A stretch of DNA of 64,000 nucleotides from Lacrimispora indolis DSM 755 (lineage in GTDB: Bacteria; Bacillota; Clostridia; Lachnospirales; Lachnospiraceae), in assembly GCF_000526995.1 (NCBI RefSeq), contig NZ_AZUI01000001.1, positions 682,001-746,000 on the forward strand. The letters run 5' to 3'. Every line of letters begins with the position of its first letter. The first letter of the stretch is position 1. Both the position numbers and the translations under genes were made by a program. Below, piece by piece: positions 13,477 through 32,115 of the stretch. The notes under the pieces were generated by a model. It was not told the DNA's origin. It ran no database searches and was given only the letters and a program-made list of their open reading frames with translations.

Positions 13477-14307
13477 TCAGATAATGTGCAGTGCACCTTT
13501 TTCATCTGTACCCAGATACAGTTTTCCTTCCAGCATGCTTCCGTCTTCTGTAGCCCGGTATAGTTCTTCCTTCCAGATGATCCACTGGCTTTTTGCCATA
13601 GCACCGTCGTTATTCAGATAGTACCATCTGCCGTCTGATCCGGTCTTCCATGTATCTTTTACCATATATCCGGCACCATCGAACCAATACCAGTTTTCCC
13701 CGTCCTTGTACCAGTCGTTTTTAACATAGTTTCCGGTATCTCCCAGGTAGAACCTCCAGCCGCCCTCCTCTTCTATCCATCCGGATTGATTCTGGGGCGC
13801 TTCTGTCAATGCTAGTTTAAAATCATTCCACGTATGCTGGGTGTGATTGTAAACGTAAGGATTGGGGCAGATTTTTCCCGTTACGTCATAGTGGCGTATT
13901 ACGTGATCTGCCGTGACATCGTAATGCTTCATCAGCTCTTTTGTCAGCTGGGCGGCGGCCTTTACTGTTGCATCTTCAAAATACCAGTCTCTGCTTGTAT
14001 CTGACTGACTGCCATTGTTCCTGACACAGAGCTCGATTCCCAGACTGTTGCTGTTTCGGCATTCCGGATGGATATATGTTTTTGCCCCGCAATGCCATGC
14101 AATATCTTTGTCCTCAACGGACTGCCAGATCTCTCCGCTGAAGCCAACAAAATAATGAGCGCTGGCTCCGATGTATTGGGAGGCGTAATATTTGCAGTTT
14201 GCTTCGGCTCCTCCTAAAGCCCCTACATAGTGGATCACGATATATTTAATTCGGTCTATCTGACCGTTGCTGTAGTTGTATGGTGTCAATAGTTTGTGAA
14301 CTTCCAT
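13477..14307 (-). CDS. N-acetylmuramoyl-L-alanine amidase (phage-type endolysin) with cell-wall-binding repeats
   Basis: Residues 1 to about 160 form an amidase_2 (T7 lysozyme / PGRP-like) domain. The zinc ligands are visible as H26 in IVIHYVG, H139 in VIRHYDVTGK and C147 in the following CPNP. The remainder (about 175-276) holds choline-binding-type aromatic repeats such as GWRFYLGDTGNYVKNDWYK, NWYWFDGAGYMV and RWYYLNNDGAMA, which anchor it to the wall polymer. It cuts the bond between muramic acid and the stem peptide and, with the holin at 14544-14969, releases the particles by lysis. It is the last gene of the tail operon, one base after the small gene at 14309. Confidence 0.93.
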   Translation of the reverse strand: MEVHKLLTPYNYSNGQIDRIKYIVIHYVGALGGAEANCKYYASQYIGASAHYFVGFSGEIWQSVEDKDIAWHCGAKTYIHPECRNSNSLGIELCVRNNGSQSDTSRDWYFEDATVKAAAQLTKELMKHYDVTADHVIRHYDVTGKICPNPYVYNHTQHTWNDFKLALTEAPQNQSGWIEEEGGWRFYLGDTGNYVKNDWYKDGENWYWFDGAGYMVKDTWKTGSDGRWYYLNNDGAMAKSQWIIWKEELYRATEDGSMLEGKLYLGTDEKGALHII

Positions 14308-14308
14308 A

Positions 14309-14464
14309 TTAAATCCCTTCCCTTATGCCCACGAACCCCATCTCATCCGCATCAAAAGATTCCCGGAAACGTTCTATTTCCGTGTAATCGGCATTCTTTA
14401 GATTTTCCTGTATTCCCAGCAGCTCCATGTTCGGCATATCTTTTGTAGCCTCACTTTTAACCAT
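14309..14464 (-). CDS. Small hypothetical protein between holin and amidase
   Basis: A 51-codon frame starts MVKSEATKDMPNMELLG and ends FDADEMGFVGIREGI. It is preceded by AAGGAG nine bases before the ATG and ends one base before the amidase start, so it is very likely translated and coupled to the amidase. It is acidic and hydrophilic with no membrane segment, which argues against a second holin subunit. I do not recognise the family. A role in lysis timing or in the particle is possible from position only. Confidence 0.65.
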   Translation of the reverse strand: MVKSEATKDMPNMELLGIQENLKNADYTEIERFRESFDADEMGFVGIREGI

Positions 14465-14543
14465 AATGTCTCCTTGTCCTTTTTATTATTATAATATGAC
14501 GGAAAGGGCGGGGATGTACCGGGCTGAAATGGGCCTTTTATCG

Positions 14544-14969
14544 TTATTGTGATGGCTGCGATTTCTTGTTTAAAATGTCTATGGCTCTGATTAAGACCTG
14601 TGGGAGGGGCAGGCCCATAAGGCCTGCATTCTCTACGATGGATATGAGCTCGTTTGCCATAAAACCGATGATGACAGTGTCTCGTATGTAGGGGGTGCCT
14701 AGGGATAGGTCTAAGCGGTGGGCCACCAGCACAAACAGGAGCGTCATACACTTCCTGCATAAGCCTTTAAAGCCCGCCTTTGATTCTAATGTTCCGGATT
14801 CTGTTTTTACACTTTTATGGAACACTCCGGCTACTGCCAGGCCTGAAAGGAAATCAACAGCCATGAAAAGTATTAAAGTTCCGATTGCGGTATCCCACCC
14901 TCCAAATACAGACACTATGAAACTGCCTGCTGCTCCTGCAGCTGTACATAATATATTTTTCATTCTCAT
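14544..14969 (-). CDS. Phage-type holin (holin_4 / TcdE-like family)
   Basis: The 141-residue protein has a basic start, then hydrophobic segments around residues 5-25 (NILCTAAGAAGSFIVSVFGG), 27-50 (TAIGTLILFMAVDFLSGLAVAGVF), 70-85 and 95-115, with ESKAGFKGLCRKC between them. This is the pattern of the clostridial toxin-secretion / phage-lysis holin family. It forms pores in the cytoplasmic membrane that let the amidase reach peptidoglycan. GAGG precedes the ATG; a second ATG two codons on could also be used. It lies five bases after the XkdX-like gene, within the lysis end of the tail operon. Confidence 0.9.
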   Translation of the reverse strand: MRMKNILCTAAGAAGSFIVSVFGGWDTAIGTLILFMAVDFLSGLAVAGVFHKSVKTESGTLESKAGFKGLCRKCMTLLFVLVAHRLDLSLGTPYIRDTVIIGFMANELISIVENAGLMGLPLPQVLIRAIDILNKKSQPSQ

Positions 14970-14974
14970 TTACC

Positions 14975-15115
14975 TCACGCTTTCTTATATTCTTCTCCTG
15001 TGATCTCCCGGTATTCCTCCACTGTGATCCAGCGGCCTACCGAGTTCCACACCATTTCCTCTGACCACAGTTCAGAATCATAAAAACTCTTTACTTTTTC
15101 AAAATTTTTACTCAT
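14975..15115 (-). CDS. XkdX-like small phage protein
   Basis: The 46-residue product reads MSKNFEKVKSFYDSELWSEE and then MVWNSVGRWITVEEYREITG, matching the XkdX family pattern (a YD.GLW...MV..AV..G.IT..EY..ITG motif). It has GGAGGT five bases before the ATG, and the ATG overlaps the stop of the preceding 90-residue gene, indicating translational coupling. XkdX proteins occur at the fibre / lysis junction of PBSX-like phages; their function is not established. Confidence 0.85.
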   Translation of the reverse strand: MSKNFEKVKSFYDSELWSEEMVWNSVGRWITVEEYREITGEEYKKA

Positions 15116-15380
15116 CGTCTACCTCCGTTCCTGTGCCTGACATCATGGAGAGGTACTCTATCCGAGCATTCATCATCTTCAATGTTTTCGTCAAAACCGA
15201 CATTTGAGTCTCTTCTATGATGGGAGCAACAGTATCTTCATCAATAGTAAGGCCTGTTAACTGTTCCCCGTCTTCAACCTCAACAATAATATTTCTAACG
15301 TCCTTGCTTGCCATCTCCTGGCCATATTGAACGGCTAATATACGACCATTTTCATGATCATAAATGACTGAAACCTTCAA
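15108..15380 (-). CDS. Hypothetical phage protein preceding XkdX
   Basis: The 90-residue acidic protein begins MKVSVIYDHENGRILAVQYG and ends MSGTGTEVDDE. The C-terminal half (QMSVLTKTLKMMNARIEYLSMM) could be a short coiled coil or oligomerisation helix. Genes of this size sit between the fibre genes and xkdX in many Firmicute myophages, the position of xkdW. I do not recognise a conserved domain. A fibre-associated or chaperone role is an inference from position. Confidence 0.7.
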   Translation of the reverse strand: MKVSVIYDHENGRILAVQYGQEMASKDVRNIIVEVEDGEQLTGLTIDEDTVAPIIEETQMSVLTKTLKMMNARIEYLSMMSGTGTEVDDE

Positions 15381-15407
15381 TAAAAAACCTCCTCGTATTA
15401 ATTATTA

Positions 15408-15827
15408 TTACTTTGTGAATTCAATTTTCTCAATTATCATTTCACCATAGGTTGCCATTACGCTTTCAGATTGTATTCTGAAAAATGCTTGCACATTTAT
15501 ACTGGATACATCTAAGGAAACCACTGTTGAAACAAAATAGCCGCCGCTTACTTGACTGGATGATTTAATGGTACTCTTACTTGTATTTAGTAATACAATG
15601 CGACACTCCCCACCCAGTCCATCTGACCCTCGCCCATAATTAGATCTAAATGTAACCTTCAGTTGGCTAAATGGCGTCAGGTTAACACTCTTAGAGTTTA
15701 CAATATATTGAGAGTATATATAATCATCACCATCATTGCTATTGTAGTATTTCCCTCTTAAATATATCCCTGGATAAGTTCCTGTGGAAATATAAAATCC
15801 TCCTCTATCTGTTCCTGTCGACTGCAC
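15408..15827 (-). CDS. Distal tail-fibre segment, possibly reached by frameshifting
   Basis: The open frame reads GGFYISTGTYPGIYLRGKYY and then a beta-rich glycine/serine/tyrosine sequence ending IIEKIEFTK, resembling a receptor-binding tip of a tail fibre. The GTG at 15827 has no good ribosome binding site. The frame stays open upstream to 15926, and that extra part reads coherently as protein (ERLFLSGGRAGGFLNGTFSG), overlapping the end of the preceding fibre gene in the -1 frame. No ATG, GTG or TTG with a ribosome binding site is found in the overlap. The segment may therefore be made as a -1 frameshift extension of the gene at 15860-16489, or the two may be one gene split by a mutation or error. 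Confidence 0.6.
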   Translation of the reverse strand: MQSTGTDRGGFYISTGTYPGIYLRGKYYNSNDGDDYIYSQYIVNSKSVNLTPFSQLKVTFRSNYGRGSDGLGGECRIVLLNTSKSTIKSSSQVSGGYFVSTVVSLDVSSINVQAFFRIQSESVMATYGEMIIEKIEFTK

Positions 15828-15859
15828 GCCCCCAGAGAGGACACCCGAGAACGTGCCGT

Positions 15860-16489
15860 TTAAAAAGCCACCTGCCCTACCGCCAGATAAGAATAGTCTT
15901 TCATTGTGCCAATAGTACCGCCAACATTAACTCCCTCTTTGACGTTTGCGGCTGTAAGGTTTGACACGCCATTCACCACCACATTCCCAGTCATATACTT
16001 CCCAGAGCTGGAAACCGTCTGCTGGGAAGCAGTAGGGTTAATTGTCTGCCCTGCCAAAGAGGCAATATTTCCTGTAAGCTTACTTCCATTCACCCAAGCC
16101 GTTTGCCCGCTTAAAATATGTGCCGCCGCAGCCGTTGCGCTGGTCTGACTTGCCAAACTGTTAGCTGTCACCTTACCGCCCCCATTGTGAAAACCAGCAG
16201 GAACCGTATACGAAGCACCAGCATTCAAATTCAGGGCCACCGCACCATGGTTTACCATAGAGCCTGTTCTCTTAATTTTGGGATTCGAATTATAATATGT
16301 TTTTCCTTCCAGTACCTGACTATCTGACACGTCACCAGTAAGTTCCAATGTTCCTTCAGCCACTTCATCAGCGGAATCTGATGTAATTGCTCTATACCCC
16401 TTTAAAACCTCTGCCTTTGAAGCTGTGCACTCATCAGAACCTGCTCCTGATCCGCCAGCTCCGGCGATAATCACTTTACCCATTATCAC
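15860..16489 (-). CDS. Tail-fibre-like protein
   Basis: The 209-residue protein is rich in alanine, glycine, serine and threonine, with short repeated beta segments such as ILSGQTAWVNGSKLTGNIAS and NLTAANVKEGVNVGGTIG that are typical of phage tail-fibre shafts. The N-terminus MGKVIIAGAGGSG may attach to the baseplate side. It ends DYSYLAVGQVAF at a TAA embedded in TTTTTAAAC. The start overlaps the previous gene by 14 bases; an ATG two codons downstream is an alternative. It probably forms part of the receptor-binding fibre that sets target specificity. Confidence 0.72.
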   Translation of the reverse strand: MIMGKVIIAGAGGSGAGSDECTASKAEVLKGYRAITSDSADEVAEGTLELTGDVSDSQVLEGKTYYNSNPKIKRTGSMVNHGAVALNLNAGASYTVPAGFHNGGGKVTANSLASQTSATAAAAHILSGQTAWVNGSKLTGNIASLAGQTINPTASQQTVSSSGKYMTGNVVVNGVSNLTAANVKEGVNVGGTIGTMKDYSYLAVGQVAF

Positions 16490-16910
16490 TTACCCCCCTC
16501 AAATACACGCTGAAATCTCCGGTCGGCTTCTTTTCTGCACAGTAAAACGTTACATATCCATCTTCTGTTTCACCGTCAGTTATCATTCCAACCATTTTTC
16601 TTCTAAGTTTTACCTCTGCCGGTGATAATTCCTTTGGAGTACATGGACTGATTATAGGATTATCTGATGCTTTTATCCCAGTCACCGCGATTTTCTGGCT
16701 GTATGGAATCATATTGCTCCAACCAGAGGCAGGAATAATGACCTCTATCGGCCGTTCATGCTGCTCCAGAATCATCTTATTATAGAAAGTATTATTGAAA
16801 AGCTGTTCTATCTCAAAAGCCATTTCCTGACCATCTGCCAGAGTCTCTCTATCCCACTTTCTGATTTCCATAGTATATTCAGGTGGGGTTTTTACATTGC
16901 AAAATATCAT
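16476..16910 (-). CDS. Hypothetical tail-fibre-region phage protein
   Basis: The 144-residue protein begins MIFCNVKTPPEYTMEIRKWD and has the stretch TFYNKMILEQHERPIEVIIP. It has a clear AAGGAGG ribosome binding site and overlaps the next fibre gene, so it is a real member of the operon. I do not recognise the domain. Its place between the tail-collar-like protein and the fibre shaft suggests a fibre connector or fibre component. Confidence 0.68.
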   Translation of the reverse strand: MIFCNVKTPPEYTMEIRKWDRETLADGQEMAFEIEQLFNNTFYNKMILEQHERPIEVIIPASGWSNMIPYSQKIAVTGIKASDNPIISPCTPKELSPAEVKLRRKMVGMITDGETEDGYVTFYCAEKKPTGDFSVYLRGVSDNG

Positions 16911-16922
16911 AATTTAACCTCC

Positions 16923-17318
16923 TTAAAAGATTTCATCCATATCATAGATCTGCGGGATGTCTGCATCTTTTCCTTTACGCATAAATGTCCGATAGGCAAT
17001 TAAATCGCCATCCGAATCAAACAACCCCATTTCCGATATTTCTCTTCCTGTAAGCTCGTCCTTATCCAGAGTAGCAGTAAAACGGCATGTCGATTCCATA
17101 TCATTTACATATGCATGGGTTTCGATCTCCTTCATCAACAGCTCATTATAAAGCCCGATTTCATTGCCTGTTGTTGTCTTAGGCTGTCCGTTTTCATCCA
17201 CTCCTCCGTCTCCCCATGCCATATGTGTGATAATTGGGAGTGTTATATCCCCGGCATGAGCCTTGCAAAACTTCTTCCTTCCTGTTGTTGTTATTACTCC
17301 ATTTGATGTATTTGTCAT
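16923..17318 (-). CDS. Phage tail-fibre / collar-like protein
   Basis: The 131-residue protein starts MTNTSNGVITTTGRKKFCKA and contains IITHMAWGDGGVD, GNEIGLYNELLMKEI and LTGREISEMGLFDSDGDL. This is the pattern of short phage tail-fibre N-terminal proteins (DUF3751-like), in which the conserved ISE.GLFD segment anchors fibres to the baseplate. It follows the YmfQ/XkdU-like gene by 15 bases and lies directly before the other fibre genes, fitting the order baseplate then fibre. Confidence 0.78.
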   Translation of the reverse strand: MTNTSNGVITTTGRKKFCKAHAGDITLPIITHMAWGDGGVDENGQPKTTTGNEIGLYNELLMKEIETHAYVNDMESTCRFTATLDKDELTGREISEMGLFDSDGDLIAYRTFMRKGKDADIPQIYDMDEIF

Positions 17319-17333
17319 TTTTCTCTTCCTCTC

Positions 17334-18260
17334 TTATAAAATTGATAAGCCACCATTTAACTTTCGCCTGCTATCTAATTTCCAAGTGCTATTCACCCTA
17401 TTTATGTTCATAACACGGATCGTACCTGCTGTTGCCTGTTCCTCTGTTTCAAATAATAAAGCTGCTTTCATTTTGCATTGTATATCTCTCCTTAAATCAG
17501 TTTTAAATCTCAATATGTTATTACCTGTGTTACTCTGCTCCACAAATACCGTCGGTACCTTTATTCGTTCTGCTCCTTTAACAAATTCTGAAACATTCGC
17601 TTCCAGTCTGGATCTTATCGGGTAAAAGTCGATAAATTCTCTACTGTTATACCCATTCAGCCTACAGCTGCCATTTAACGGCCAGAGATTATCCAAATAT
17701 AAGTACGAAAGATTGTAGCGAGGATAAAAACCTATCCGGTAGCGGATTGAATTTTTACAAGAAGTCTGAAAATTATAGTTTCCAGAATATTTACTGAAAA
17801 AAACTGTTTCCAAATTAGCTGGTACCATTTCTTGAATCATTCCTTGAATACTTTTTAAGACTGTTATTGGTCTCTCCTTCACTACAAGCTTCAATTTATA
17901 AATATGATGAAAAATATATAATTCGTAGTCTTCACCTAACAAAGCCGTTAGCTGCTCTCTTAATTTACTTCTGGAGTAAGGAAGTTGGTAATTCCAATTT
18001 GCCAAAACTGCTGATCTTCTCTCATCAAGCGTAAATTGAGGATCTGGTTTTAAATCTAAAAACTGCTCCCATTTCTTTATTCCCTGATAGTCTGTCGTCA
18101 AAATGAATCCAGCTTCCCAAATATACCGGCAGCTATCATAAAGATTTTTGAGTTCTTCCGCCTCTAGTTTCGCGATAGTGTTAAACTCAACAATTTCCTT
18201 AACGTACTCTGGGAAATAAGAGTTTAAATCATTTTCCCTCCGATCATACATGAATCTCAC
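17334..18260 (-). CDS. XkdU / YmfQ-like tail protein with a repeat-rich C-terminus
   Basis: Residues 1 to about 155 match the putative phage tail protein family next to baseplate J (XkdU / YmfQ, DUF2313): YFPEYVKEIVEFNTIAKLEA, FDLKPD-type segments with DERRSAVLANW, and IQGMIQEMVPANLE. The C-terminal half has the related motifs LDNLWPLNGSCRLNGY and STWKLDSRRKLNGG, a pattern common in tail proteins of this position. It would connect the baseplate wedge to the fibres. Its start overlaps the end of the baseplate J gene by 17 bases, as in PBSX. Confidence 0.84.
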   Translation of the reverse strand: MRFMYDRRENDLNSYFPEYVKEIVEFNTIAKLEAEELKNLYDSCRYIWEAGFILTTDYQGIKKWEQFLDLKPDPQFTLDERRSAVLANWNYQLPYSRSKLREQLTALLGEDYELYIFHHIYKLKLVVKERPITVLKSIQGMIQEMVPANLETVFFSKYSGNYNFQTSCKNSIRYRIGFYPRYNLSYLYLDNLWPLNGSCRLNGYNSREFIDFYPIRSRLEANVSEFVKGAERIKVPTVFVEQSNTGNNILRFKTDLRRDIQCKMKAALLFETEEQATAGTIRVMNINRVNSTWKLDSRRKLNGGLSIL

Positions 18261-19299
18261 CTCTCACAGCTATTCTATCCGATGGAATAACATAATTTTC
18301 ACTTTTCCCATTGATGTATGTATCAAACACATCAAGAATTCCTTCCACATCCAGCAGTTTGCTTTCAATTCTGGAAATCCTCACTACGTTTTCACTAAAC
18401 TCCTGCCAGGATTTGTTTAGTTCCGCCAGGTAACCATCGATCGTATTACTGATATCATCATAGCACCGACCGGCATCATACCCTGTCTGATATGTAATAT
18501 TAGTTACAATGGATATTTTCTCCCCCTCTGCGCCAACTACAGTTACCTCATGGCCAATGGGGGCCAGTCCATAACCCTTCCCTTGATTCGGCTCCGGGTC
18601 AATTTGATCCTGTACTGTTTGAATCAAATCTTCAGTAGGAATACTAAAAGATGAGTCAATAATAACCAGCTTCACAGTTCCACCACCGGCCCATGCAGGA
18701 AAGACTTTTACCCCTCCCACTCCAGAAATTGCAGATACCTTTTCTTTATAATCTGCTATATTTCCACCATACGCCTGTGATTTTAAACTATTAAAATATC
18801 GCTTGCGAAATCGCTCTGTTTCTTCCTCATCTTCTCCAGGTATTAATAATTCCGTCAATTCTGCCTTTGTCAGCCCTTTTATATATTCAATAGGGATTAA
18901 TCTGCCAAAGTTGCTGTTACCAGCTGCTCCGATTGTCTCACATCGCATTCTGTATTCACCGATACCCAATCGTTCTACAGCTGTATAGTTTAAAACATCT
19001 GATGAAAAACGACTACCAATGGATATTTCTACATTGAATTCTCCTTTTAATTCTGCATAGGTAGCTGCTTTTGGTATTACTCCACGCTCTGCTGCCCTAC
19101 GAATTAAAAATTCCCGACTTGCTGAATCAGCAAACATTTCCTTTAAAACATGATCCAACTCAATATATGTAATTGCAATTTCCGCTGCTGATGGAGCTAA
19201 AGCTGTGTAAATGACAGATCCTTCCCTTCTATCCAGTTCTTTTGGAACCCGATCCAGCATTCGTTTCAAAATAACTTCATACGTCATATCCTCATACAT
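18244..19299 (-). CDS. Baseplate J / gp47-like protein (XkdT)
   Basis: The 351-residue protein contains LIRRAAERGVIPKAATYAEL, the cysteine/glycine-poor central part with ETIGAAGNSNFGRLIPI and GEDEEETERFRKRY, and VSAISGVGGVKVFPAWAGGG. This is the baseplate_J (P2 gpJ / T4 gp6-like) family. It builds the baseplate wedges that switch conformation and trigger sheath contraction. Length matches the family. Its start overlaps the stop of the XkdS-like gene by one base. Confidence 0.92.
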   Translation of the reverse strand: MYEDMTYEVILKRMLDRVPKELDRREGSVIYTALAPSAAEIAITYIELDHVLKEMFADSASREFLIRRAAERGVIPKAATYAELKGEFNVEISIGSRFSSDVLNYTAVERLGIGEYRMRCETIGAAGNSNFGRLIPIEYIKGLTKAELTELLIPGEDEEETERFRKRYFNSLKSQAYGGNIADYKEKVSAISGVGGVKVFPAWAGGGTVKLVIIDSSFSIPTEDLIQTVQDQIDPEPNQGKGYGLAPIGHEVTVVGAEGEKISIVTNITYQTGYDAGRCYDDISNTIDGYLAELNKSWQEFSENVVRISRIESKLLDVEGILDVFDTYINGKSENYVIPSDRIAVRGEIHV

Positions 19300-19700
19300 T
19301 AAATGTTCACCTCCTTCTCAACTACGATTTCTCCCAAAATGGTATGAACCATAAACCTTACATGAAGCGACTGCCCATTGCTTTCAAAAGAAAACGTATC
19401 AACACTCTGTATCCGGTCATCCTGCTGCAACGCTTCTTTGATTCTCTTTTTGATCTTTGCCTTTACCAGCCCTGTTGATTTTCCAAATAAGTTTTTAAAC
19501 TCCACACCATAATTCCAGCTGTAAATCAGCCAATCGAACCGTTCTGTATTAAGAATACAGAACACGGTTTGCCTTATCGCCTCCAAGCCATCTACAGTTC
19601 CGACCACGCGCTTTGTTTCCGTATCAAGACGAAAGGTTTTTGACGGCATCTGGACCACCTTAATATCCTGCTCTAAAATATTACCTGTCACCGGAAGCAT
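19299..19700 (-). CDS. XkdS-like baseplate protein (DUF2634, gp25-like)
   Basis: The 133-residue protein has KTFRLDTETKRVVGTVDGLE and AIRQTVFCILNTERFDWLIY followed by WNYGVEFKNLFGK, the DUF2634 pattern of PBSX XkdS. It is a relative of the lysozyme-like gp25 wedge protein, which nucleates the sheath at the baseplate. It sits 16 bases after the XkdR-like gene in the canonical order R-S-T. Confidence 0.9.
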   Translation of the reverse strand: MLPVTGNILEQDIKVVQMPSKTFRLDTETKRVVGTVDGLEAIRQTVFCILNTERFDWLIYSWNYGVEFKNLFGKSTGLVKAKIKKRIKEALQQDDRIQSVDTFSFESNGQSLHVRFMVHTILGEIVVEKEVNI

Positions 19701-19716
19701 GGCAACACCTCCTTTC

Positions 19717-20031
19717 CTACCACGTACCCATTACCACATACTGTTGCCCGCCTCTCTTCTGAAGCAGAAGCACCTTTTGACCTGCTTTTAACCCATCTTT
19801 TACAGTTACAGCCACCTGACCGATTCCAGGAATATTCATTTCCTCCGTATGGTCCGTAAATTGTTTCAGCAGAATGATCTGTGATTCGGACAGGATTGTC
19901 TTCTGATCAATTTGTATTTCCATAGGATTTACTTTAATTACAGTTCCTGGTATCACGTCACATGGATCTCCCGCTTCGATTGCCTGAATTACGATCCGTT
20001 TTATATTTTCGATCCATTCCACATCAGCCAC
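19717..20031 (-). CDS. XkdR-like protein (DUF2577)
   Basis: The 104-residue protein carries VIPGTVIKVNPMEIQIDQK and KDGLKAGQKVLLLQKRGGQQ, typical of DUF2577 (PBSX XkdR), a small OB-like baseplate hub or spike component. It overlaps the XkdQ-like gene by eight bases, indicating translational coupling. Confidence 0.9.
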   Translation of the reverse strand: MADVEWIENIKRIVIQAIEAGDPCDVIPGTVIKVNPMEIQIDQKTILSESQIILLKQFTDHTEEMNIPGIGQVAVTVKDGLKAGQKVLLLQKRGGQQYVVMGTW

Positions 20032-20980: not shown

Positions 20981-20990
20981 TTCCTACCTC

Positions 20991-21659
20991 CTATGGCATA
21001 GTGAGAACCTGCCCCGGATAAATAACATTGGGATTTGTTATTTTATCCCGGTTCAGATTATGGATTTCCTGCCACCGGCTCCCATTGCCAAGCTGTTTTT
21101 TCGCTATGGACCACAGACAGTCTCCCTTATTAACCACATAAGTTTTCACCGGCGGCGGTTCTCCCTGACGTTCCTCCTGCGGTTGTACAGACTCTATTTT
21201 CTGATTTTCTTCAACAATAGAAAAATTCATAATTTTAGTTCCATAATTTTTATATTCCTTCATTGTAAGGGACACTATGAGATCAAGCCCCTGACTCACA
21301 TCATCCGTAACCTTATAATCTTCCAAAGTAACATCAATGCTGGTATCAAAAAGGCTGTTTCCTCCCGTTCCCTGGCGGATAACGGTGAATTCAAAAGGAC
21401 TTTTGCCATCCTTCAACTCCTGAAGCCGTTCCAGAAAATCTTCTGCACTGTCAATGCTGCCATCCCAAACTGCGCTGGGATAATCCATTTGAGGAATTAT
21501 TGCATCAATTCCGATTTCTGCAAGGCCAAAGGGCCTGATCAAATTGATTTCTTCGCCATTTATTAAGTTCACCGTCTTATTTTGCCCGCTATATTTAATA
21601 GGGATCTTTTCCGGCGGCAACGGGAGAAGCATATCATCAATATAAACTTCATATGCCAT
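20991..21659 (-). CDS. XkdP-like LysM tail protein
   Basis: The 222-residue protein has a tail-connector N-terminal part (MAYEVYIDDMLLPLPPEKIP, then INLIRPFGLAEIGI) and a LysM domain at residues 170-222 (TYVVNKGDCLWSIAKKQLG, ending NVIYPGQVLTMP). In PBSX-like tails this protein links tube and hub, and the LysM part can bind peptidoglycan. It shares its first base with the last base of the tape-measure gene, so translation is coupled. Confidence 0.91.
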   Translation of the reverse strand: MAYEVYIDDMLLPLPPEKIPIKYSGQNKTVNLINGEEINLIRPFGLAEIGIDAIIPQMDYPSAVWDGSIDSAEDFLERLQELKDGKSPFEFTVIRQGTGGNSLFDTSIDVTLEDYKVTDDVSQGLDLIVSLTMKEYKNYGTKIMNFSIVEENQKIESVQPQEERQGEPPPVKTYVVNKGDCLWSIAKKQLGNGSRWQEIHNLNRDKITNPNVIYPGQVLTMP

Positions 21660-24121
21660 TAAAAGTTCACTCCTTCCGCAGCTGAAGCAAGAATTTCATT
21701 GGTAGCATCACCGAGTCTGCGATACATTTCATCAATATCAGCTACATTCTTTATGGTGTTGTTGTTATTCACATCTACTTTTAGTTCAGCAAGGGTAAAT
21801 CGGTTGATGATTTCCTGTTCCGCAGCATCCCGCATATACTTTAACTCCTCATCCATGATATCCATTGAGTCTGCCATAGCTGCCGTATTCATAGCTGTAT
21901 CTCCGGTACTTTGGGCAATGCTGTCAGTTACACCAGGCAGACCAGATTCTGAGGAATTCCTGTCAAGGAAACTATTTATCCCGCCAAATTTATCCTTTAT
22001 GTTATCTCCCAACTCTCCTCCAAATTCATATCCGTTATGGGCTTTATCACCATAATTCCACCGTTTCAGTGGTATACCAAAATCAGCCAATACCTGATCC
22101 ATGTCCAGTTTATCTGCTTTGACCTCATAGGTCCCGTTTCCATACTTTTCAGCAAGCTGATCGGCAAGATTAGATAAATTATCCCGCCAGCCTTTCACGG
22201 TATCTGCCATATGGGTACCAAATACAAAGTCCAGGCCCTGTGCTATCTTTTGTATAACGCCAAGAACTGTATCACCTAAATCTGCAAATAAGTGAATTAC
22301 CGAAGCTACCGGATCATGAAACAGATTTCCGAAAAAGTTTGCAAAAGCTACCCAGCCATTATAAAAGTACTCAATAATCCCAAACCCGATTTCCAGGATT
22401 CCCATAAGAGCATTGGCTATAAATGCAACGGCTACCGCAATTGCGCCACATATCATCCCGGTTGCGCTGTAAGAGGTTCCGGCGAATTTATTAAAGGCAG
22501 CCACACCTGCATAAAACAGTCCTATCAAAATGATAATAAACATAATTATCCAATTAAGAGGGCAGGCAGCTAATGCTGCATTTAATCCGTCCTGGGCAGC
22601 TATCAATGCAATTATCGCTGCAGTCTCCGCCCAATCGCAGATCGTCTTCCACACTTGGCCAGCTGCATTCTTTATTGTAGCAATCCACCCATCTTTCAAC
22701 GTTGCATTGTAAACAATCAACGCCCCAATAATTCCCCACAAAACAGGCTCTATCACAGGCCATACTTCTGCAAAAGCCCTACCCACGGTTCCGGCCACAA
22801 ATCCAATGGTTCCAAAAATCCCGGTGATTTCACCGACATTTCCCTTAAGTCCGGCTGTAAAGCTGCTGATGGCTTTGGTCACATTGTCAACCATATTGCC
22901 TATAGGACCGGCAAGCCCCATATTGACTGTTTTAGCCAAAGAGCTCAGTGCACTGGCTGCATCATTGTATTTTACATTATTTAATTCTTCCAGATGTTCC
23001 GTTGACAGCTGTACGGAGCCATCCAAATTAGACAATGCCATAACCCCTTCGCTGCCTAACGCTCCCCAGGTGCTGCCAAACAATTTCATCCCTGCTACAT
23101 TCCTTTTCACAGGATCTTCCATACTGCTTAAAGCGGCTATCGTCTGCTGGAATGCCTGCTTTGCCGTATCGCCACCGCTTCCGAAAGCTTCCGTCATCTT
23201 TGCAGCATCAAGCCCCAAAGCGGAAAAACCTTCCCGGGCGTCCTTTCCTCCTCCAACAGTCCTTGATGTAAATTCCTTTACAGCGTCGCCTAACGTGCTG
23301 ACTGAAATTTCTCCATTCTGTGCTCCATTGACCAGCATGTTAAACATATCAGCTCCGCCAAGGCCTAAACTTTTAAACTGGGGAGAATATTCATTGATCG
23401 TATCCAAAAGCTCTCCGTTTTTATCAAGACCTGCCTGAGTTGCCTGCACGATTAAGTCCAATGACTGAGCACCGGTAACTCCAAACTGCGCTTGCAGCAC
23501 TCCTGCAGTACGGATACTGTCTGCCAGGCTGTAACCAAAAGTATCTTCCAGGAGCAATCCTGCTCTTGTAAGCTGTTCCAGGCTGTTCCCTGTCTGTCCG
23601 GTCATCTGATGAATGGATGATAAACTCTTTGCGGCATCTTCCGGACTTCCGCTTATGTTATCCACGTACAGGTTTTTCGTGCTTTGTTTTGCCGCCTCTA
23701 AATCCTGTCCCTGCATTCCGGTCCTGGACTGTATGAGATTACCGGCTGCTTTTATATCATTTGCCTGGTTAAATATTTCCATTGGACTGGTGTTGATTCC
23801 CATCTTACCCAGACCAGATAATGCCTTATCACAGAGTTTCTTCATTTTCTGGAATTTGTCATTGCCTTCATCTATGCTTTTATTTAATTCTTCCTGCTGC
23901 TCTTTGGCTTGCACAATTACTTCCGTAACCTGTTCAAACTGGATTCCCATGCTATGGATATCCGTTACGGATGCTGATATTCCCGGCAGACCCATAAAAT
24001 TATCTGCTGCCACCTGGAACTTTCGAAAGGACTCGCTAGTCATATTGATTGAATGATTGATCCTCGTTAATATGGAGGAGGCTCCATCCTGAAGCTGTAT
24101 TGAGTTTTGTATTGTTGCCAT
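21659..24121 (-). CDS. Tail tape-measure protein (XkdO-like)
   Basis: The 820-residue protein has a coiled-coil N-terminal part (EVIVQAKEQQEELNKSIDEG), a TP901-type tape-measure core (residues about 100-400, including QMTGQTGNSLEQLTRAGLLL and AREGFSALGLDAAKMTEAFG), then three strongly hydrophobic segments around residues 440-590 and a helical C-terminus. It sets tail length inside the growing tube and is probably ejected on contraction. At the commonly used 0.15 nm per residue, the tail should be near 120 nm long. It is 57 bases downstream of the frameshift extension of the tail chaperone gene. Confidence 0.92.
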   Translation of the reverse strand: MATIQNSIQLQDGASSILTRINHSINMTSESFRKFQVAADNFMGLPGISASVTDIHSMGIQFEQVTEVIVQAKEQQEELNKSIDEGNDKFQKMKKLCDKALSGLGKMGINTSPMEIFNQANDIKAAGNLIQSRTGMQGQDLEAAKQSTKNLYVDNISGSPEDAAKSLSSIHQMTGQTGNSLEQLTRAGLLLEDTFGYSLADSIRTAGVLQAQFGVTGAQSLDLIVQATQAGLDKNGELLDTINEYSPQFKSLGLGGADMFNMLVNGAQNGEISVSTLGDAVKEFTSRTVGGGKDAREGFSALGLDAAKMTEAFGSGGDTAKQAFQQTIAALSSMEDPVKRNVAGMKLFGSTWGALGSEGVMALSNLDGSVQLSTEHLEELNNVKYNDAASALSSLAKTVNMGLAGPIGNMVDNVTKAISSFTAGLKGNVGEITGIFGTIGFVAGTVGRAFAEVWPVIEPVLWGIIGALIVYNATLKDGWIATIKNAAGQVWKTICDWAETAAIIALIAAQDGLNAALAACPLNWIIMFIIILIGLFYAGVAAFNKFAGTSYSATGMICGAIAVAVAFIANALMGILEIGFGIIEYFYNGWVAFANFFGNLFHDPVASVIHLFADLGDTVLGVIQKIAQGLDFVFGTHMADTVKGWRDNLSNLADQLAEKYGNGTYEVKADKLDMDQVLADFGIPLKRWNYGDKAHNGYEFGGELGDNIKDKFGGINSFLDRNSSESGLPGVTDSIAQSTGDTAMNTAAMADSMDIMDEELKYMRDAAEQEIINRFTLAELKVDVNNNNTIKNVADIDEMYRRLGDATNEILASAAEGVNF

Positions 24122-24178
24122 ATACCTTCCCTCCTTTCCTTTCTAGAAGAACACCTTGAAAGGTGTCCTTCCATTTTT

Positions 24179-24346
24179 CTATCTTTTCCCTGCAGACTTC
24201 GCCTTTTGTGCTTCTTTCTTATCATTTTCCAGTTTTAGCTGTACTGCAGCCATAATAAACGCCCGTTCATACCGGTCCAGGCTCAAAAACTCATGAGGCC
24301 ATTTGTGGAGCTTGTGGAGGCAATAGTAGGCAATATTTGCTTCCAT
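24179..24346 (-). CDS. Tail assembly chaperone, second frame (gpT-like extension)
   Basis: A 55-codon frame starts MEANIAYYCLHKLHKWPHEF and continues LSLDRYERAFIMAAVQLKLE, with a GGAGGTG ribosome binding site before the ATG at 24346. The frame is open upstream and joins the -1 frame of the XkdN-like gene exactly at its A AAA AAC heptamer (24364-24370), without an intervening stop. It is therefore most likely made mainly as a C-terminal extension of the XkdN-like protein, giving a 203-residue fusion, like lambda gpG-T. Independent translation from its own ATG also looks possible. The gene lies between the chaperone and tape-measure genes, the standard place. Confidence 0.85.
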   Translation of the reverse strand: MEANIAYYCLHKLHKWPHEFLSLDRYERAFIMAAVQLKLENDKKEAQKAKSAGKR

Positions 24347-24360
24347 ATCACCTCCTTCTA

Positions 24361-24789
24361 TCAGTTTTTTGCCTCTTCCACCTGCTCTTCCAGAGTGATA
24401 TCAAAACCATTTACCTGCTGAATGCGTTCCAGATAACCTGCATATTCCCCTGCAGTCAGCATGGCCTTTAAAAGCCCGTCTGCCCCCATAACGTGATAGG
24501 AATCCTGCAGTTCCTTATCATTTAAGTTAGGGTAAACCGTGCATTCTGCCGCCAGCTTTCCAAGATAAAGGTTATAATCCGTCTCCTGGGTATACTGTCC
24601 CTTTTTTCCGGTCACTGAAACCCGCTTTGTGCTCTCTTTTCTCAGAGCTTCATCCTCCTTAGAGGAAATTGCTTTAATCTCCCATTCCACCGGTTTTTTG
24701 TCCGGACCTAAAAAGCGTTTGGAGGCAACATATTTTTCATGCTCTGCCTTAACTGCGTTCTGGCTCAAAAAACAACTTAAATCTCCCAT
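24361..24789 (-). CDS. XkdN-like tail assembly chaperone
   Basis: The 142-residue protein reads MGDLSCFLSQNAVKAEHEKY, then VEWEIKAISSKEDEALRKES and LGKLAAECTVYPNLNDKELQ, the pattern of PBSX XkdN. Proteins in this position bind the tape-measure protein and help the tube polymerise on it, and they are not part of the finished particle. The gene ends with a slippery heptamer and should also yield a longer frameshifted form. It is 22 bases downstream of the tube gene. Confidence 0.9.
   Translation of the reverse strand: MGDLSCFLSQNAVKAEHEKYVASKRFLGPDKKPVEWEIKAISSKEDEALRKESTKRVSVTGKKGQYTQETDYNLYLGKLAAECTVYPNLNDKELQDSYHVMGADGLLKAMLTAGEYAGYLERIQQVNGFDITLEEQVEEAKN
24364..24370 (-). promoter_or_regulatory. 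Programmed -1 ribosomal frameshift site (A AAA AAC)
   Basis: The zero frame of the XkdN-like gene ends GCA AAA AAC TGA. The heptamer A AAA AAC is the canonical X XXY YYZ slippery sequence, in the correct phase and immediately before the stop codon. Slipping back one base gives AAA AAA CTG ATA GAA and continues in frame into the 55-codon gene downstream. The ribosome binding site of that gene, 7-13 bases downstream, could also act as a stimulating Shine-Dalgarno-like element. Confidence 0.85.
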
Positions 24790-24811
24790 GTCCTCTTATC
24801 CCCTTTTTCTT

Positions 24812-25285
24812 TTACTGCATTCCCGCAAGGTTGCTGAATCTTTCCGGCATTTCCCAGCTTTCAAATGTGAATTCAAACTCATCTTCCAGATATTCCCCTG
24901 TTGCGTCAAATTTGGTGATAATGCCTCCATTTAAGTTGCAATCTTTTAAAATCACAGTCTGACGGCCGACCCTGGAAGCAGGATCCTCATTGGTTACCTG
25001 AATATCAAAATAAATATCTTTTCCAGTCTGCTGGAACTTGTATAAAATATCCCGGAAAATGCTTGTATTGTAATGAAAAGTAGCAGATCCGCTTCCCTTC
25101 ATTCCCACGGTCTTATTTCCCTTCATGGCCCGTCCCAGAATCGGGATCTCTGATTTCACCTTTTCAATCTTTGCCTCCAGATTCAGTGCCTGCATAAAAT
25201 TGTACCGCTCATTTTCAATTGTGATAAAACACTCTGCTTTTGTGGCGCTGATCGCGTCCCACGCGTCCATTGTAATATTGCTCAT
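24812..25285 (-). CDS. Tail tube protein (XkdM-like, DUF2001)
   Basis: The 157-residue protein contains WDAISATKAECFITIENERY, KTVGMKGSGSATFHYNTSIF and FDATGEYLEDEFEFTFESWE, the XkdM / DUF2001 pattern. It polymerises into the inner tube that is driven through the target envelope. It follows the sheath gene by 17 bases, the invariant order in myophages and R-type bacteriocins. Confidence 0.93.
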   Translation of the reverse strand: MSNITMDAWDAISATKAECFITIENERYNFMQALNLEAKIEKVKSEIPILGRAMKGNKTVGMKGSGSATFHYNTSIFRDILYKFQQTGKDIYFDIQVTNEDPASRVGRQTVILKDCNLNGGIITKFDATGEYLEDEFEFTFESWEMPERFSNLAGMQ

Positions 25286-25302
25286 ATTTTCTTACCCCTT
25301 TC

Positions 25303-26601
25303 TTATGAAACAACTACTGTCATGTATAAAATGCTCATGGAATTAATCGGTTTCACTGGTAAATTTACGACGACAGACCGCTTGTCCTGTCCCTTTTCCA
25401 CGGTTACTTCTTCTGAATTCACTGCTTCAATGGCCCCTAACACCGCCAGCTGCTTTCCATATGTAACAATGTCATTCCAAAGACTTACCCGCCCAGCATC
25501 ATCGTTTGAGATTTTGCCCAGATAACGTGTATGGAAAAGAGATGCAATATCATTTCCAATCTGATCCAGAACACGTACCGTCTGGTTGTTAGAGAAATCT
25601 TCTCCCTTTTCCTCCGTATAAGTAACCAATGTGTTACTGTCAGTCAGAACCCGTATTTCACTTCCTACCTTGTGAAGCATGAGCTTGCCCGCTTTTATGG
25701 CATCAGCAAGCTGGGCCTGAGTATAGGAAGTCTTAACTGTATACTCGCCGTCATAAACCTTATTTTCAATGGTCTTGTTGACAGCACAAGCCGCTTCTGC
25801 ACCGGCAGCCCAATAAACAAGCCCTACAGCTGATTCCTCTGCTTCATTCTCCACGGAAATGACTCCCTCGTAATCAGCCTTGGAATACTGGTGTAATACT
25901 GTCTGGAACTTAACGCCGGCCTCATCCCTCATGCGTTTTGTAAATGCTGTAAACAAAGCCTTCACATTATCGTCTGCGGAAGGGCAGCAAAGAATCTGGA
26001 AGAAGGCATTTTCCATCTTTTCCAGGAATTCTGCGTAGTCCTCTCCTGTCACATCAGCGCCATTGGTGCCTCCTGTAAACGGAAGCCCTGCCGTCTCTGC
26101 CAGAGCAGACTCCTTTTTAAATATCACATAGCTGTTATCCTTCAGTTCTCCTGCTTCTGTGATCGTCTGGCAATCAATTTCTCTTCCGGCAAGCAGTGTT
26201 TTTACATCAAATTTGGAAGGATCATCCACGTTTTTAGAAATAATTGTCATCAGGCTGTTTCCACGAATACCTGAGTACTTTGCCGTGCCGTAATCATTGG
26301 CCCCATGTACCCCTGCATTCAAGCGGTAGAAAATACCTTTTGTCATATTTCTGAAAAGCTCTCTTACTGGAAGCATCGCTGCATCGTTCATTGCATAGCC
26401 AAAAATTTCTTTACACCTTTTTCGAAAATCCTCTGCGGTAACCTCAAACACTTCCTTCTCCGGTCCCCATTCAAGAACCATAGGGATTGCCGCCACTCCC
26501 CTGCTTCCCATGGCGGCACCAGCTGAAGCGGTACTGACAAAATTGATATATGCACCAGGAAATACCTTATTTTGAATTGTAAAATTTCCTCCACCTAACA
26601 T
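25303..26601 (-). CDS. Contractile tail sheath protein (XkdK-like)
   Basis: The 432-residue protein has the sheath N-terminus (PGAYINFVSTASAGAAMGSR, then GVAAIPMVLEWGPE), the central ETAGLPFTGGTNG and TRYLGKISNDDAGRVSLWND, and a C-terminal strand (VVVNLPVKPINSMSILYMTV) of the type that swaps between neighbouring sheath subunits. It forms the outer cylinder whose contraction drives the tube. Its presence makes this a contractile, myovirus-type tail and not a siphovirus tail. It overlaps the small upstream gene by seven bases. Confidence 0.94.
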   Translation of the reverse strand: MLGGGNFTIQNKVFPGAYINFVSTASAGAAMGSRGVAAIPMVLEWGPEKEVFEVTAEDFRKRCKEIFGYAMNDAAMLPVRELFRNMTKGIFYRLNAGVHGANDYGTAKYSGIRGNSLMTIISKNVDDPSKFDVKTLLAGREIDCQTITEAGELKDNSYVIFKKESALAETAGLPFTGGTNGADVTGEDYAEFLEKMENAFFQILCCPSADDNVKALFTAFTKRMRDEAGVKFQTVLHQYSKADYEGVISVENEAEESAVGLVYWAAGAEAACAVNKTIENKVYDGEYTVKTSYTQAQLADAIKAGKLMLHKVGSEIRVLTDSNTLVTYTEEKGEDFSNNQTVRVLDQIGNDIASLFHTRYLGKISNDDAGRVSLWNDIVTYGKQLAVLGAIEAVNSEEVTVEKGQDKRSVVVNLPVKPINSMSILYMTVVVS

Positions 26602-26792
26602 ACTTTCACCCTTCCTTTCATAAATCGATTCATAATTTCTTCTGCTTCTGTTGCAGAGTATACTTTTCTATCGTCAAGCAAAGCGCTTAATAAGTCCCTT
26701 TGATTGCGATACCTTTCCGAGCGGATCAGCTGATCCTTTGTGAAACGTGCAACGACAGTCCCGCCCGTTTCTTTTACACTTTTTTTTGCCAC
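26595..26792 (-). CDS. Small hypothetical phage protein upstream of the sheath gene
   Basis: The 65-residue basic protein (MAKKSVKETGGTVVARFTKD, then LIRSERYRNQRDLLSALLDD and a helix EAEEIMNRFMKGRVKV) occupies the place of the short conserved gene often found just before the sheath gene in Firmicute myophages. It overlaps the sheath start, so translation is coupled. I do not recognise an established function. Confidence 0.78.
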   Translation of the reverse strand: MAKKSVKETGGTVVARFTKDQLIRSERYRNQRDLLSALLDDRKVYSATEAEEIMNRFMKGRVKVC

Positions 26793-26805
26793 AACAACAC
26801 CTCTT

Positions 26806-27219
26806 TCACTTTATTTTTATATCTTCCATGGATTCCTGCGATTCTCTGGCTTTTAAAATATAGACCTGATAATCAACCAGGAAATTTAAAGCAGCCTCCT
26901 CATATTTTCCCTTTCTGCTGCTGCCTCTTATTAAGGAGCCATCTTCCAGAGTAATGTATTCCAGCTTGTCCATCAGAATTTCCAGAACAAGATTCCTGTC
27001 CTTTAGCCGCTGTTCTGGATCCTGACAGTAATATTTCACATACACGCTCACGCTGCAGAAATAACGCTGACCGTTTACAGGTTTTTCTGATGTTTCCAGG
27101 AACCCGACCTCAAAATATGGTTCAGCAATTCCCTCCCCCAAGGGAATTGTACCGATCCTGGTCTCCGGAAAAAGCTCTCTTAGCCTTTTCAGGACTCCCT
27201 CCATGATTTCGTTATACAT
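26806..27219 (-). CDS. XkdJ-like tail terminator-region protein
   Basis: The 137-residue protein (MYNEIMEGVLKRLRELFPET, then EPYFEVGFLETSEKPVNGQR and GKYEEAALNFLVDYQVYILK) matches the family of PBSX XkdJ (DUF6838-like), placed directly upstream of sheath genes and thought to cap the tail. It is the most head-proximal structural gene present. Upstream, where capsid, portal and head-completion genes should lie, there is only a 33-codon frame and a regulator. This gene therefore marks the left boundary of a headless tail cassette. Confidence 0.83.
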   Translation of the reverse strand: MYNEIMEGVLKRLRELFPETRIGTIPLGEGIAEPYFEVGFLETSEKPVNGQRYFCSVSVYVKYYCQDPEQRLKDRNLVLEILMDKLEYITLEDGSLIRGSSRKGKYEEAALNFLVDYQVYILKARESQESMEDIKIK

Positions 27220-27231
27220 AAAATCCTCCTT

Positions 27232-27333
27232 TCATACAGCACCAGCCCTCCCTTTGGGCACCAGACTTTTCTCATACCGGGCATATTGCATTTGTGTGGG
27301 GCTCCTCACCTTCCCCCAATCTCCTATTTTCAT
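27232..27333 (-). CDS. Possible 33-residue protein at the head-proximal end of the tail operon
   Basis: A 33-codon frame begins MKIGDWGKVRSPTQMQYARY and ends VPKGRAGAV. It has AAGGAG eight bases before the ATG at 27333, and its neighbours are only 12 and 15 bases away. It may be a small regulator or structural gene, or the leftover of a deleted head-tail joining gene. I do not recognise it and the call rests on ribosome binding site and spacing alone. Confidence 0.42.
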   Translation of the reverse strand: MKIGDWGKVRSPTQMQYARYEKSLVPKGRAGAV

Positions 27334-27348
27334 TAAATGCTCCTTTCC

Positions 27349-27585
27349 TCATCGCTTGAAGTAGTCATTTTGTCTACTTTTCAGTAAAAAAATTTCATCT
27401 CTCTTTTTCAACGACGTAATCTTAAGTAACCGGCACAACTCCTTGATCTCTCCTGTCTTAAACTGGTTCTCATTGTTTACCTTCCGCCAAAATCCATAAC
27501 TGGACAGATTCAATTCCATCGCGATCCAGCCCTTTTTTAGTCCGGACTTTTTGATTTCATCATTTAGCCGAACTGTATCTGTCAT
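27349..27585 (-). CDS. Small helix-turn-helix regulator heading the tailocin operon
   Basis: The 78-residue protein (MTDTVRLNDEIKKSGLKKGW, then IAMELNLSSYGFWRKVNNEN) has a phage-type helix-turn-helix of the DUF739 / Cro-like kind. Residues 1-66 differ from the product of 31733-32026 at only seven positions, so the two genes are recent duplicates. It is the first gene on the minus strand ahead of the tail genes, with a TTGACA-17-TATGAT promoter and a 17-base operator at the predicted transcription start. A second copy of the operator overlaps its own 3' end. It may activate tail gene expression or act as a Cro-like antirepressor. Confidence 0.8.
   Translation of the reverse strand: MTDTVRLNDEIKKSGLKKGWIAMELNLSSYGFWRKVNNENQFKTGEIKELCRLLKITSLKKRDEIFLLKSRQNDYFKR
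27361..27377. promoter_or_regulatory. Operator copy 1 (GTAGTCATTTTGTCTAC)
   Basis: An imperfect palindrome with arms GTAGTCA / TGTCTAC overlaps the 3' end of the small HTH gene. It matches the other three copies except at the two central AT positions. Confidence 0.7.
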
Positions 27586-27605
27586 ACTATCTTTCCCTCT
27601 CTTTT

Positions 27606-27622
27606 GTAGTCATATTGTCTAC
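27606..27622. promoter_or_regulatory. Operator copy 2 at the tailocin promoter
   Basis: GTAGTCATATTGTCTAC, flanked by T and A to give a 19-base palindrome, lies 8 bases beyond the -10 box of the minus-strand promoter. A bound repressor would occlude transcription start of the tailocin operon. Confidence 0.8.
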
Positions 27623-27629
27623 ATTCGTT

Positions 27630-27658
27630 ATCATACTCCACTGTCCCATATTTGTCAA
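27630..27658 (-). promoter_or_regulatory. Promoter of the tailocin operon
   Basis: On the minus strand TTGACA (27658-27653) and TATGAT (27635-27630) are 17 bases apart, a near-consensus sigma-A promoter that would be strong unless repressed. The same boxes occur in the second copy at 32069-32097. Confidence 0.85.
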
Positions 27659-27715
27659 CAGTATTTTGAAATTTTGTTGAACTTTTTTCTACAACGTGAC
27701 ATAATGCTCCTACTG

Positions 27716-32026: not shown

Positions 32027-32044
32027 ACGATCTCCTCCTCTTTT

Positions 32045-32061: not shown

Positions 32062-32068
32062 ATTCATT

Positions 32069-32097: not shown

Positions 32098-32115
32098 CAC
32101 CGTTTCGAATTTTTG

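Follow-up and report, generated by a model that had tools for sequence, protein, structure and literature searches.

The subject of this work is a gene cassette in a window of 64,000 nt, the whole stretch of DNA analysed, from the 6.38-Mb genome of Lacrimispora indolis DSM 755 (G000 in our set). The cassette occupies positions 13477-27585 on the minus strand and encodes a complete contractile tail without a head, which is very probably a domesticated R-type tailocin residing at a weapon locus found throughout the genus. Gene content, the absence of linked head genes, a conserved locus, selection, switch sites, a shift site in a fibre gene and a hairpin next to it are all borne by the sequence itself. 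The features of an R-type tailocin that can be read from sequence were found here: the contractile tail is complete, no head, packaging or integration genes are linked to it, the lysis genes are its own, and it is under selection at a stable site. The comparison set consisted of 25 genomes of the genus, L. indolis included (G000-G024). Sixteen of them carry a headless PBSX-like core beside holA and are hereafter called R-core genomes, leaving 15 besides our own. A sequence-only reading of the window had already proposed a domesticated R-type tailocin, and this proposal was supported by the core at the same site in 16 of the 25 genomes, by purifying selection, by distances that track holA and by a head-bearing sister.

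Gene content of the tail cassette

The tail set was identified by Pfam and PHROG profiles, in PBSX order and complete with holin and amidase. The parts named in the sequence-only reading were found by profile matches on the minus strand where it had placed them, with the corrections given below. The first gene is the tail terminator (26806..27219; PF20765, 1.1e-20), followed by a small protein of 65 amino acids (aa; 26595..26792). All 15 other R-core genomes have relatives of it at 56-85%, some of them over part of the length, and two phage loci have relatives at 43-48%. Next come the contractile sheath (XkdK-like, 432 aa, 25303..26601; PF04984, PF17482, PF17481 and PF22671, best 4.9e-27) and the tail tube (XkdM-like, 24812..25285; PF09393, 2.7e-48; PBSX XkdM 2guj, 5.5e-24). 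A chaperone pair had been proposed downstream of the tube; its XkdN-like tail assembly chaperone (24361..24789; PF08890, 7.1e-48) stood, and the second member (24179..24346) turned out to be an extension entered through a -1 shift. The chaperone open reading frame (ORF) ends on the slippery site A AAA AAC and continues for 61 codons in the -1 frame; of 18 other loci examined for the same site, 16 have it, with an extension of 59-61 codons. It is missing from L048, the poorer contig end of G013, and from L057 of G023, a locus with many broken genes. The tape measure has 820 aa (21659..24121; PF10145, 4.8e-24; phrog_1068, 2e-95). By the rule of 0.15 nm of tail per tape-measure residue it predicts a tail of about 120 nm.

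The connector and baseplate genes comprise a LysM tail protein (XkdP-like, 20991..21659; PF01476, 1e-11; phrog_380, 2.7e-61), a YqbQ/XkdQ-like hub of 318 aa (20024..20980; PF24032, 5.6e-107), a DUF2577 protein (XkdR-like, 19717..20031; PF10844, 6.5e-22), the sheath initiator (XkdS-like, 19299..19700; PF10934, 7.1e-31), Baseplate_J (XkdT-like, 18244..19299; PF04865, 9.3e-58; diffocin CD1371, 2e-27) and a Mu gp48/XkdU-like protein (17334..18260; PF10076, 3.1e-21). In the hub PF24032 was the sole match above the cut-off, and the sequence profiles found no hydrolase domain. The fibre block starts with a tail-collar fibre protein (16923..17318; PF12571, 4.4e-06; phrog_1780, 6.4e-24) and a protein of 144 aa without family (16476..16910; 65-94% in loci sharing the fibre type). 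It continues with the fibre shaft and tip treated below, and a protein of 90 aa without family (15108..15380), which has a 37% relative in the phage locus of G014. An ORF of 46 aa read from the DNA (14975..15115), with tblastn relatives in 11 other loci, is presumably XkdX-like. The lysis genes are complete, as had been claimed, with a holin (14544..14969; PF05105, 7.1e-36) and an N-acetylmuramoyl-L-alanine amidase with choline-binding-type repeats, the endolysin (13477..14307; PF01510, 1.5e-28). The amidase was present in 14 of the 15 other R-core genomes (the stretch read from G005 ends before its position) and, within the stretches read, in 3/5 loci with the alternative core described below and 3/3 remnant loci. 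A CAAX-protease (Rce1-like) gene at 12436-13434 adjoins the amidase and is similar in the closest relatives; in most other loci no such gene was seen next to the island, and it is not clearly the element's own. An Rfam search of the window matched no family.

Conservation and inheritance of the locus beside holA

The gene holA was found in all 25 genomes, in G015 as a match of 35 residues; G015, from which no stretch was read, is unclassed, and the classed loci number 24. The headless PBSX-like core stands beside holA in G000, G001, G002, G004, G005, G006, G007, G009, G010, G012, G013, G016, G021, G022, G023 and G024. Among named relatives, a similar sheath belonged mostly to Lacrimispora and Clostridium species (13 loci). 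In five further genomes, G003, G011, G017, G018 and G019 (L074, L076, L078, L079 and L080), the same site holds an alternative contractile core, unrelated and P2-like, which stands behind the same switch and ahead of similar fibre genes. The core of G011 has an FII tube, TAC, tape measure, gpV-like spike, gp25, Baseplate_J, P2 gpI and a phrog_23 sheath; by tblastn the other four resemble it at 62-91%, the tape measure at 38-54% and the terminator at 43-46%. A non-contractile tail of F type was considered for this core and rejected on account of its FII tube, Baseplate_J, gpV-like spike, gp25 and phrog_23 sheath. The remaining classed genomes, G008, G014 and G020, have remnants of switch and/or lysis genes at the site without a tail.

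The ratio of non-synonymous to synonymous substitution rates (dN/dS) was calculated against four of the 15 relatives (L045, L046, L047 and L049) and lay between 0.012 and 0.382 for the cassette genes where unsaturated, gpJ and gp48 being saturated in L047 and L049. For the fibre the compared ORFs were longer and similar in the first part alone, and a value of 1.9 for a CPBP gene outside the cassette, from 22 codons, was disregarded. Protein distances tracked those of holA in Mantel tests with 2000 permutations, from which the two phage loci, the overlap copy L048 and the G023 locus L057, whose frames are broken, were left out. The correlations were r 0.79 for the sheath, 0.85 for the tube, 0.88 for YqbQ, 0.86 for LysM and 0.86 for the amidase, with 0/2000 permutations as high for each. 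Baseplate_J followed holA more weakly (r 0.45, p 0.001), because the block from gpJ and gp48 to the fibres occurs in different types. Compared to the window, G013 has 90% in the sheath and 52% in gpJ, and G006 has 90% and 92%, respectively; the type changes are concentrated in the baseplate and fibre block, and neighbouring genes stay similar.

Two copies of the island were seen in G013, at the two ends of one contig (L047 and the poorer L048), 99.8-100% alike over the three longest blocks. A tandem duplication was rejected: near-identical copies at contig ends are most likely the untrimmed overlap of a circular assembly. The two ends differ by an inverted fibre segment (L047:14028-15928 versus L048:13335-15880), which adjoins an integrase-type recombinase of 339 aa (L047:14784-15803; phrog_1, 1e-48). 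This suggests a switching fibre locus in the tailocin of G013; none of the other loci searched, the window included, yielded such a recombinase. Separately, a more distant contractile element with 33-36% sheath identity was seen in L063 and other places, at other sites in about ten genomes of the genus.

Absence of linked head genes and the head-bearing sister

The sequence-only reading had stated that nothing in the window resembles terminase, portal, capsid or integrase genes, and had proposed a profile search of the neighbouring sequence. In the flanks, 13 kb downstream and 36 kb upstream of the cassette, 38 ORFs were scanned with Pfam and none was named as terminase, portal, capsid, packaging or integrase gene, a few ORFs being without match. 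The flank ORFs that were named belong to carbohydrate, glycolysis, transport, regulatory and other cell functions. An ORF of 1039 aa (52815-55934) had no Pfam match at 0.001. In the other 15 R-core genomes, terminator and holA are separated by 1.6-3.2 kb, which contain the switch genes and in three genomes an AI-2E transporter gene; for these relatives the absence of head genes applies to this interval upstream of the tail.

Related tails with head genes were found in G014 and G017, elsewhere in the genome. In G017 the genes for terminase, SPP1-type portal, Mu F-like protein, scaffold, capsid E and connectors precede the terminator. The G014 locus has capsid E by Pfam, scaffold- and connector-like ORFs recognized by eye, and a portal match upstream. 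A tree of sheath, tube, LysM and hub proteins (midpoint root, L048 omitted) united the 16 headless loci in one clade (support 100/99), with the phage loci of G014 and G017 adjoining (99/97). Two long branches outside these groups lead to phiC2 and to an order-level relative. The tail of phiC2 likewise has the head genes immediately ahead of it.

A fibre tip in the -1 frame

The fibre shaft ORF (209 aa, 15860..16489; phrog_13589, 3.2e-33) terminates within the heptamer UUUUUAA (15860..15866), which includes its stop codon, and a tip domain of 151 aa continues from there in the -1 frame (15408..15863). The out-of-frame tip and the invariant shift site were present in all eight distinct sequences, most of whose tips are 34-42% identical to that of the window, and they occur in the tailocin as well as in related phages. 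The tip is under selection in its -1 frame, and the residues directly after the shift site, ahead of any start codon, are among its most conserved. A predicted RNA hairpin 3' of the site (15825..15855) shows compensatory changes, with a covariation score of 0.582 versus 0.258 and 0/500 shuffles as high. With the tip in the -1 frame behind both UUUUUAA and a hairpin, a 360-aa fibre would therefore most likely arise via a programmed -1 frameshift. We consider such a frameshift likely, both the event and its rate being predictions from the sequence. The predicted structure of the tip is a beta sandwich, and fold comparison makes a resemblance to carbohydrate-binding modules (CBM) plausible; a search of the tip profile against PDB sequences gave no match. 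Viral contigs contained no occurrence of the shift site in its stricter DNA pattern, and a looser pattern was found in six stretches, in 1/397 genomes of the family (our own) and in 4/25 of the genus. The open-access literature searched contained no report of a frameshifted tail fibre or tailocin fibre, nor of a Lacrimispora tailocin.

The tip could instead be a separate protein started within its own ORF, or the shaft ORF could be the product of a recent mutation. Start codons do occur in the tip ORF, and a GTG at 15827 is preceded by a run of G. Yet the position of the start varies (codon 7, 12, 30 or 35) and conserved residues lie before it, the tip is out of frame in 8/8 distinct sequences, and the hairpin covaries, so we regard these two explanations as unlikely. 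Several observations weigh against the programmed frameshift. The site reads GCU UUU UAA and departs from the textbook form X XXY YYZ. Long open -1 frames behind a stop are common in themselves, since the following gene is often located in them. Of the five covariation measures, two were unremarkable (changes on both sides of a pair, matched in 43/500 shuffles; pair types, in 235/500), and the sequences are related, a kinship which the shuffle control does not remove. The hairpin of the window alone was not more stable than its own shuffles (z -0.44). Finally, the in-frame fibre C-terminus of G011, of similar length, had no significant match to the -1-frame tip.

Switch, control regions and an insert

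A switch pair lies outside the cassette interval, upstream and on the plus strand. It consists of an ImmR/CI-like repressor (32165..32647; HTH_3, 1.6e-12; phrog_8, 4.5e-16) and an ImmA/IrrE-like metalloprotease, the presumed anti-repressor (32664..33125; Peptidase_M78, 9e-10; phrog_87, 6.4e-36). The repressor is present at 71-89% in 14 of the 15 other R-core genomes and split in G023, and the protease at 78-97% in all 15. This is the layout of ImmR/ImmA-type switches, with a helix-turn-helix repressor followed by an M78/DUF955 protease, divergent from a Cro-like gene with a regulated promoter. The sequence-only reading had placed only a 33-codon frame and a regulator upstream of the terminator. 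The frame exists, with tblastn matches just in G002, G001 and G013 of the 15 relatives, and the switch genes lie farther off at 32165-33125. The regulator, described there as SOS-type, is a Cro-like protein of 78 aa (27349-27585) with weak profile matches, and the description found no support here.

The control region is present twice in the window, both copies on the minus strand. Copy 2 (27334..27790) has the promoter TTGACA-17-TATGAT, operators at 27606-27622 and 27361-27377, and the Cro-like gene just mentioned. Copy 1 (31773..32229) has operators at 32045-32061 and 31800-31816 and a Cro-like gene at 31733-32080. The copies agree at 87% over 218 nt, 81% over 197 nt and 74% over 46 nt. The pattern GTAGACN5GACTAC occurs exactly four times in the genome, all in these two copies, and the reversed pattern not once. 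A consensus promoter with two GTAGN9CTAC sites was found in 15/15 other R-core genomes and 5/5 loci with the alternative core. Of the remnant loci one has the promoter and two sites, one the promoter and one site, and one has none. Both operator sites persist in G006, G013 and G012, though the Cro gene there is shortened or altered. A conserved element GTAGA...TTCAACA precedes the -35 box in every control region aligned (about 27670-27700 and 32110-32140 here); perhaps it is the repressor's own operator.

The LexA box GAACN4GTTC was absent from the control regions of the window, its sole occurrence in the window being at 51296, and in the relatives one looser match was seen, upstream of the L061 promoter. 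ImmR/ImmA-type switches can respond to DNA damage without a LexA box. Thus SOS control of the tailocin is neither shown nor excluded, and a response of the switch to stress is what its gene layout would predict.

The other 15 R-core genomes show one control region each in the stretch read, and the origin of the duplication was not settled by a tree. Between the two copies sits a 3.7-kb insert. It carries a gene for an 854-aa protein (29053..31617, minus strand) with peptidoglycan-binding repeats (PF01471, seven stretches) and a CHAP domain (PF05257, 2.6e-11), whose C-terminus is variable with predicted helices, the structure model being weak there. On the opposite strand, in A+T-rich DNA, are two YcxB-like membrane proteins (27939-28460 and 28474-29001), perhaps immunity proteins. 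At this site the CHAP and YcxB genes were seen in the window alone, i.e., in 1 of 24 classed loci. The best relatives of the CHAP protein among 299 genomes of the family are in two other genera, without tailocin or YcxB neighbours; a protein search found closer ones of up to 88%. As control copy 1 precedes the gene and has the same orientation, co-induction with the tailocin is likely, and the product could be a co-induced lysin or bacteriocin and possible cargo.

Proposed mode of action and alternative explanations

From these genes we infer induction, lysis, killing and a sugar target. The CI/ImmR-like repressor would keep a strong promoter shut until the ImmA-like metalloprotease presumably removes it under stress. 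One operon would then give a headless, DNA-free contractile tail about 120 nm long, which is released when holin and amidase lyse the producer. The fibres would attach to a sugar on the surface of related bacteria, the sheath would contract and the tube would pierce the membrane. The default fibre would be the tipless product of 209 aa, and the tipped one of 360 aa would arise by the -1 frameshift. With moderate confidence we propose, on the one hand, that the tip is made only by this frameshift, in a set ratio of tipless to sugar-binding fibres per particle. The other part of this proposal is a single socket at the side of holA, which exchanges PBSX-like and P2-like cores and fibre blocks behind one switch and lysis set.

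Against a domesticated tailocin speaks, to begin with, that the particle, its induction and its killing are here predictions from the genes. In addition, G005 has a split sheath and G023 several broken genes, holA among them, which could be assembly errors in both genomes. These broken tail genes would also suit a decaying prophage that has lost its head genes and has no present function, as would the three of 25 genomes (G008, G014 and G020) that retain only switch and/or lysis genes, and the insert in the control region of the window. Such decay is improbable given the low dN/dS, the single well-supported clade of headless loci, the divergence that tracks holA, the conserved promoter and operators, and the concentration of type changes in baseplate and fibre genes.

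The claim that nothing head-like is present stood for the window and did not extend to the genome, where PF05133 portal genes were found at 4,608,629 (open), 2,119,643 (partial) and about 0.83 Mb (broken); a search with PF04860 found none. Head proteins could thus in principle come in trans, with the tail supplied to heads of another prophage in the cell, be it as a satellite, as a split phage or as a gene transfer agent whose head genes are unlinked. The second of these portals has an ORF of 1356 aa nearby in the ORF list, of tape-measure size, which fits such a partnership and itself suggests a long-tailed phage of another kind. Baseplate_J is present in one copy in the genome, in which the sheath of the cassette has one match. 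The broken portal (G000:C1:830909-831564, in L086), about 0.1 Mb from the tailocin, has two stops inside one piece. Of the 16 R-core genomes, a number that counts our own, eleven have no PF05133 match above the cut-off, and eight have neither PF05133 (E 0.001) nor PF04860, two families that do not span all portals. A search of our genome for TerL with phrog_2 gave 0/1; this single family is too insensitive and was not used as evidence. The sister loci that do have heads carry the head genes directly upstream, and a supply of tails to foreign heads is very improbable. The same low probability is given to an extracellular injection device that delivers protein cargo. Contractile tails can be adapted for protein delivery, and the CHAP protein of 854 aa apparently has the control region in common with the tail; the lysis genes and the core are nevertheless of the PBSX-like tailocin type, and the CHAP gene is confined to one of 24 classed loci, with relatives in two other genera that lack a tail locus. 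Such a device would further be expected to bring an AAA ATPase or PAAR-type parts; the comparison made here covered the lysis genes, the core and the CHAP gene. The domesticated tailocin thus remains our preferred explanation.

Comparison with known systems

By analogy the particle would be expected to act in the manner of diffocin, PBSX and the clostocins. Diffocin of Clostridioides difficile is likewise a headless contractile tail of a Gram-positive bacterium, with related tube, sheath and Baseplate_J. Its sheath has 354 aa against 432 here, with remote similarity (2.2e-10), and the fibre with its -1-frame tip further sets our locus apart. According to the part of PMC11329794 consulted, the diffocin tape measure is of similar length, with residues modelled up to 817, and diffocin has a hub-hydrolase, unlike the 318-aa hub here, in which sequence profiles detected no hydrolase domain. 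By its predicted sheath and hub the locus is thus not a diffocin. PBSX of Bacillus subtilis shares families and order in the tail and lysis region, and XkdM is the closest solved tube (5.5e-24). The heads of PBSX package host DNA (PMC12946183, in part), whereas head and packaging genes were not found in the window, and judged by its genes the locus, having no head, is not a PBSX.

Listeria monocin is a non-contractile tail of F type. It has the same switch design as our locus and other tail proteins. In the portion of PMC6872733 used here it is a domesticated tail locus with a CI-like repressor and a DUF955/ImmA-like protease required for induction, old and vertically inherited in its genus. 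Solvent-producing clostridia have inducible R-type tails (tailocins, clostocins), encoded by prophages of about 40 kb that retain integrase and capsid genes, as excerpts of PMC10538166 describe; these share the R type and, unlike our locus, keep head genes. Carotovoricin and the Pseudomonas tailocins belong to Gram-negative hosts, unlike here. Pseudomonas tailocins of different ancestry share sites. Carotovoricin of Pectobacterium occupies one conserved site in its genus, with exchange of fibre genes and DNA inversion in the fibre (PMC13195805, in part). For TpeX of the 936 lactococcal phages and gp17.1* of SPP1, a section of PMC6669499 describes a programmed frameshift by which a tail protein gains a domain for carbohydrate binding or adhesion. 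In those phages the extended protein is that of the tail tube; here it would be the fibre shaft, both in a tailocin and in phages related to it. Should this shift be real, a phage-derived weapon and related phages would set the number of binding tips through translation.

In the part of a 2023 review seen (PMC10538166), diffocin is the only widely recognised Gram-positive R-type tailocin. The present set is headless, belongs to Lachnospiraceae and has a head-bearing sister in the same genus, and the loss of the head can therefore be studied directly. Exchange of cores behind one conserved switch shows which parts of such a weapon can be swapped. An R-type tailocin itself is thus a known kind, and what is new here are the location of the switch, the duplication of the control region, the fibre tip in the -1 frame and the interchangeable cores.

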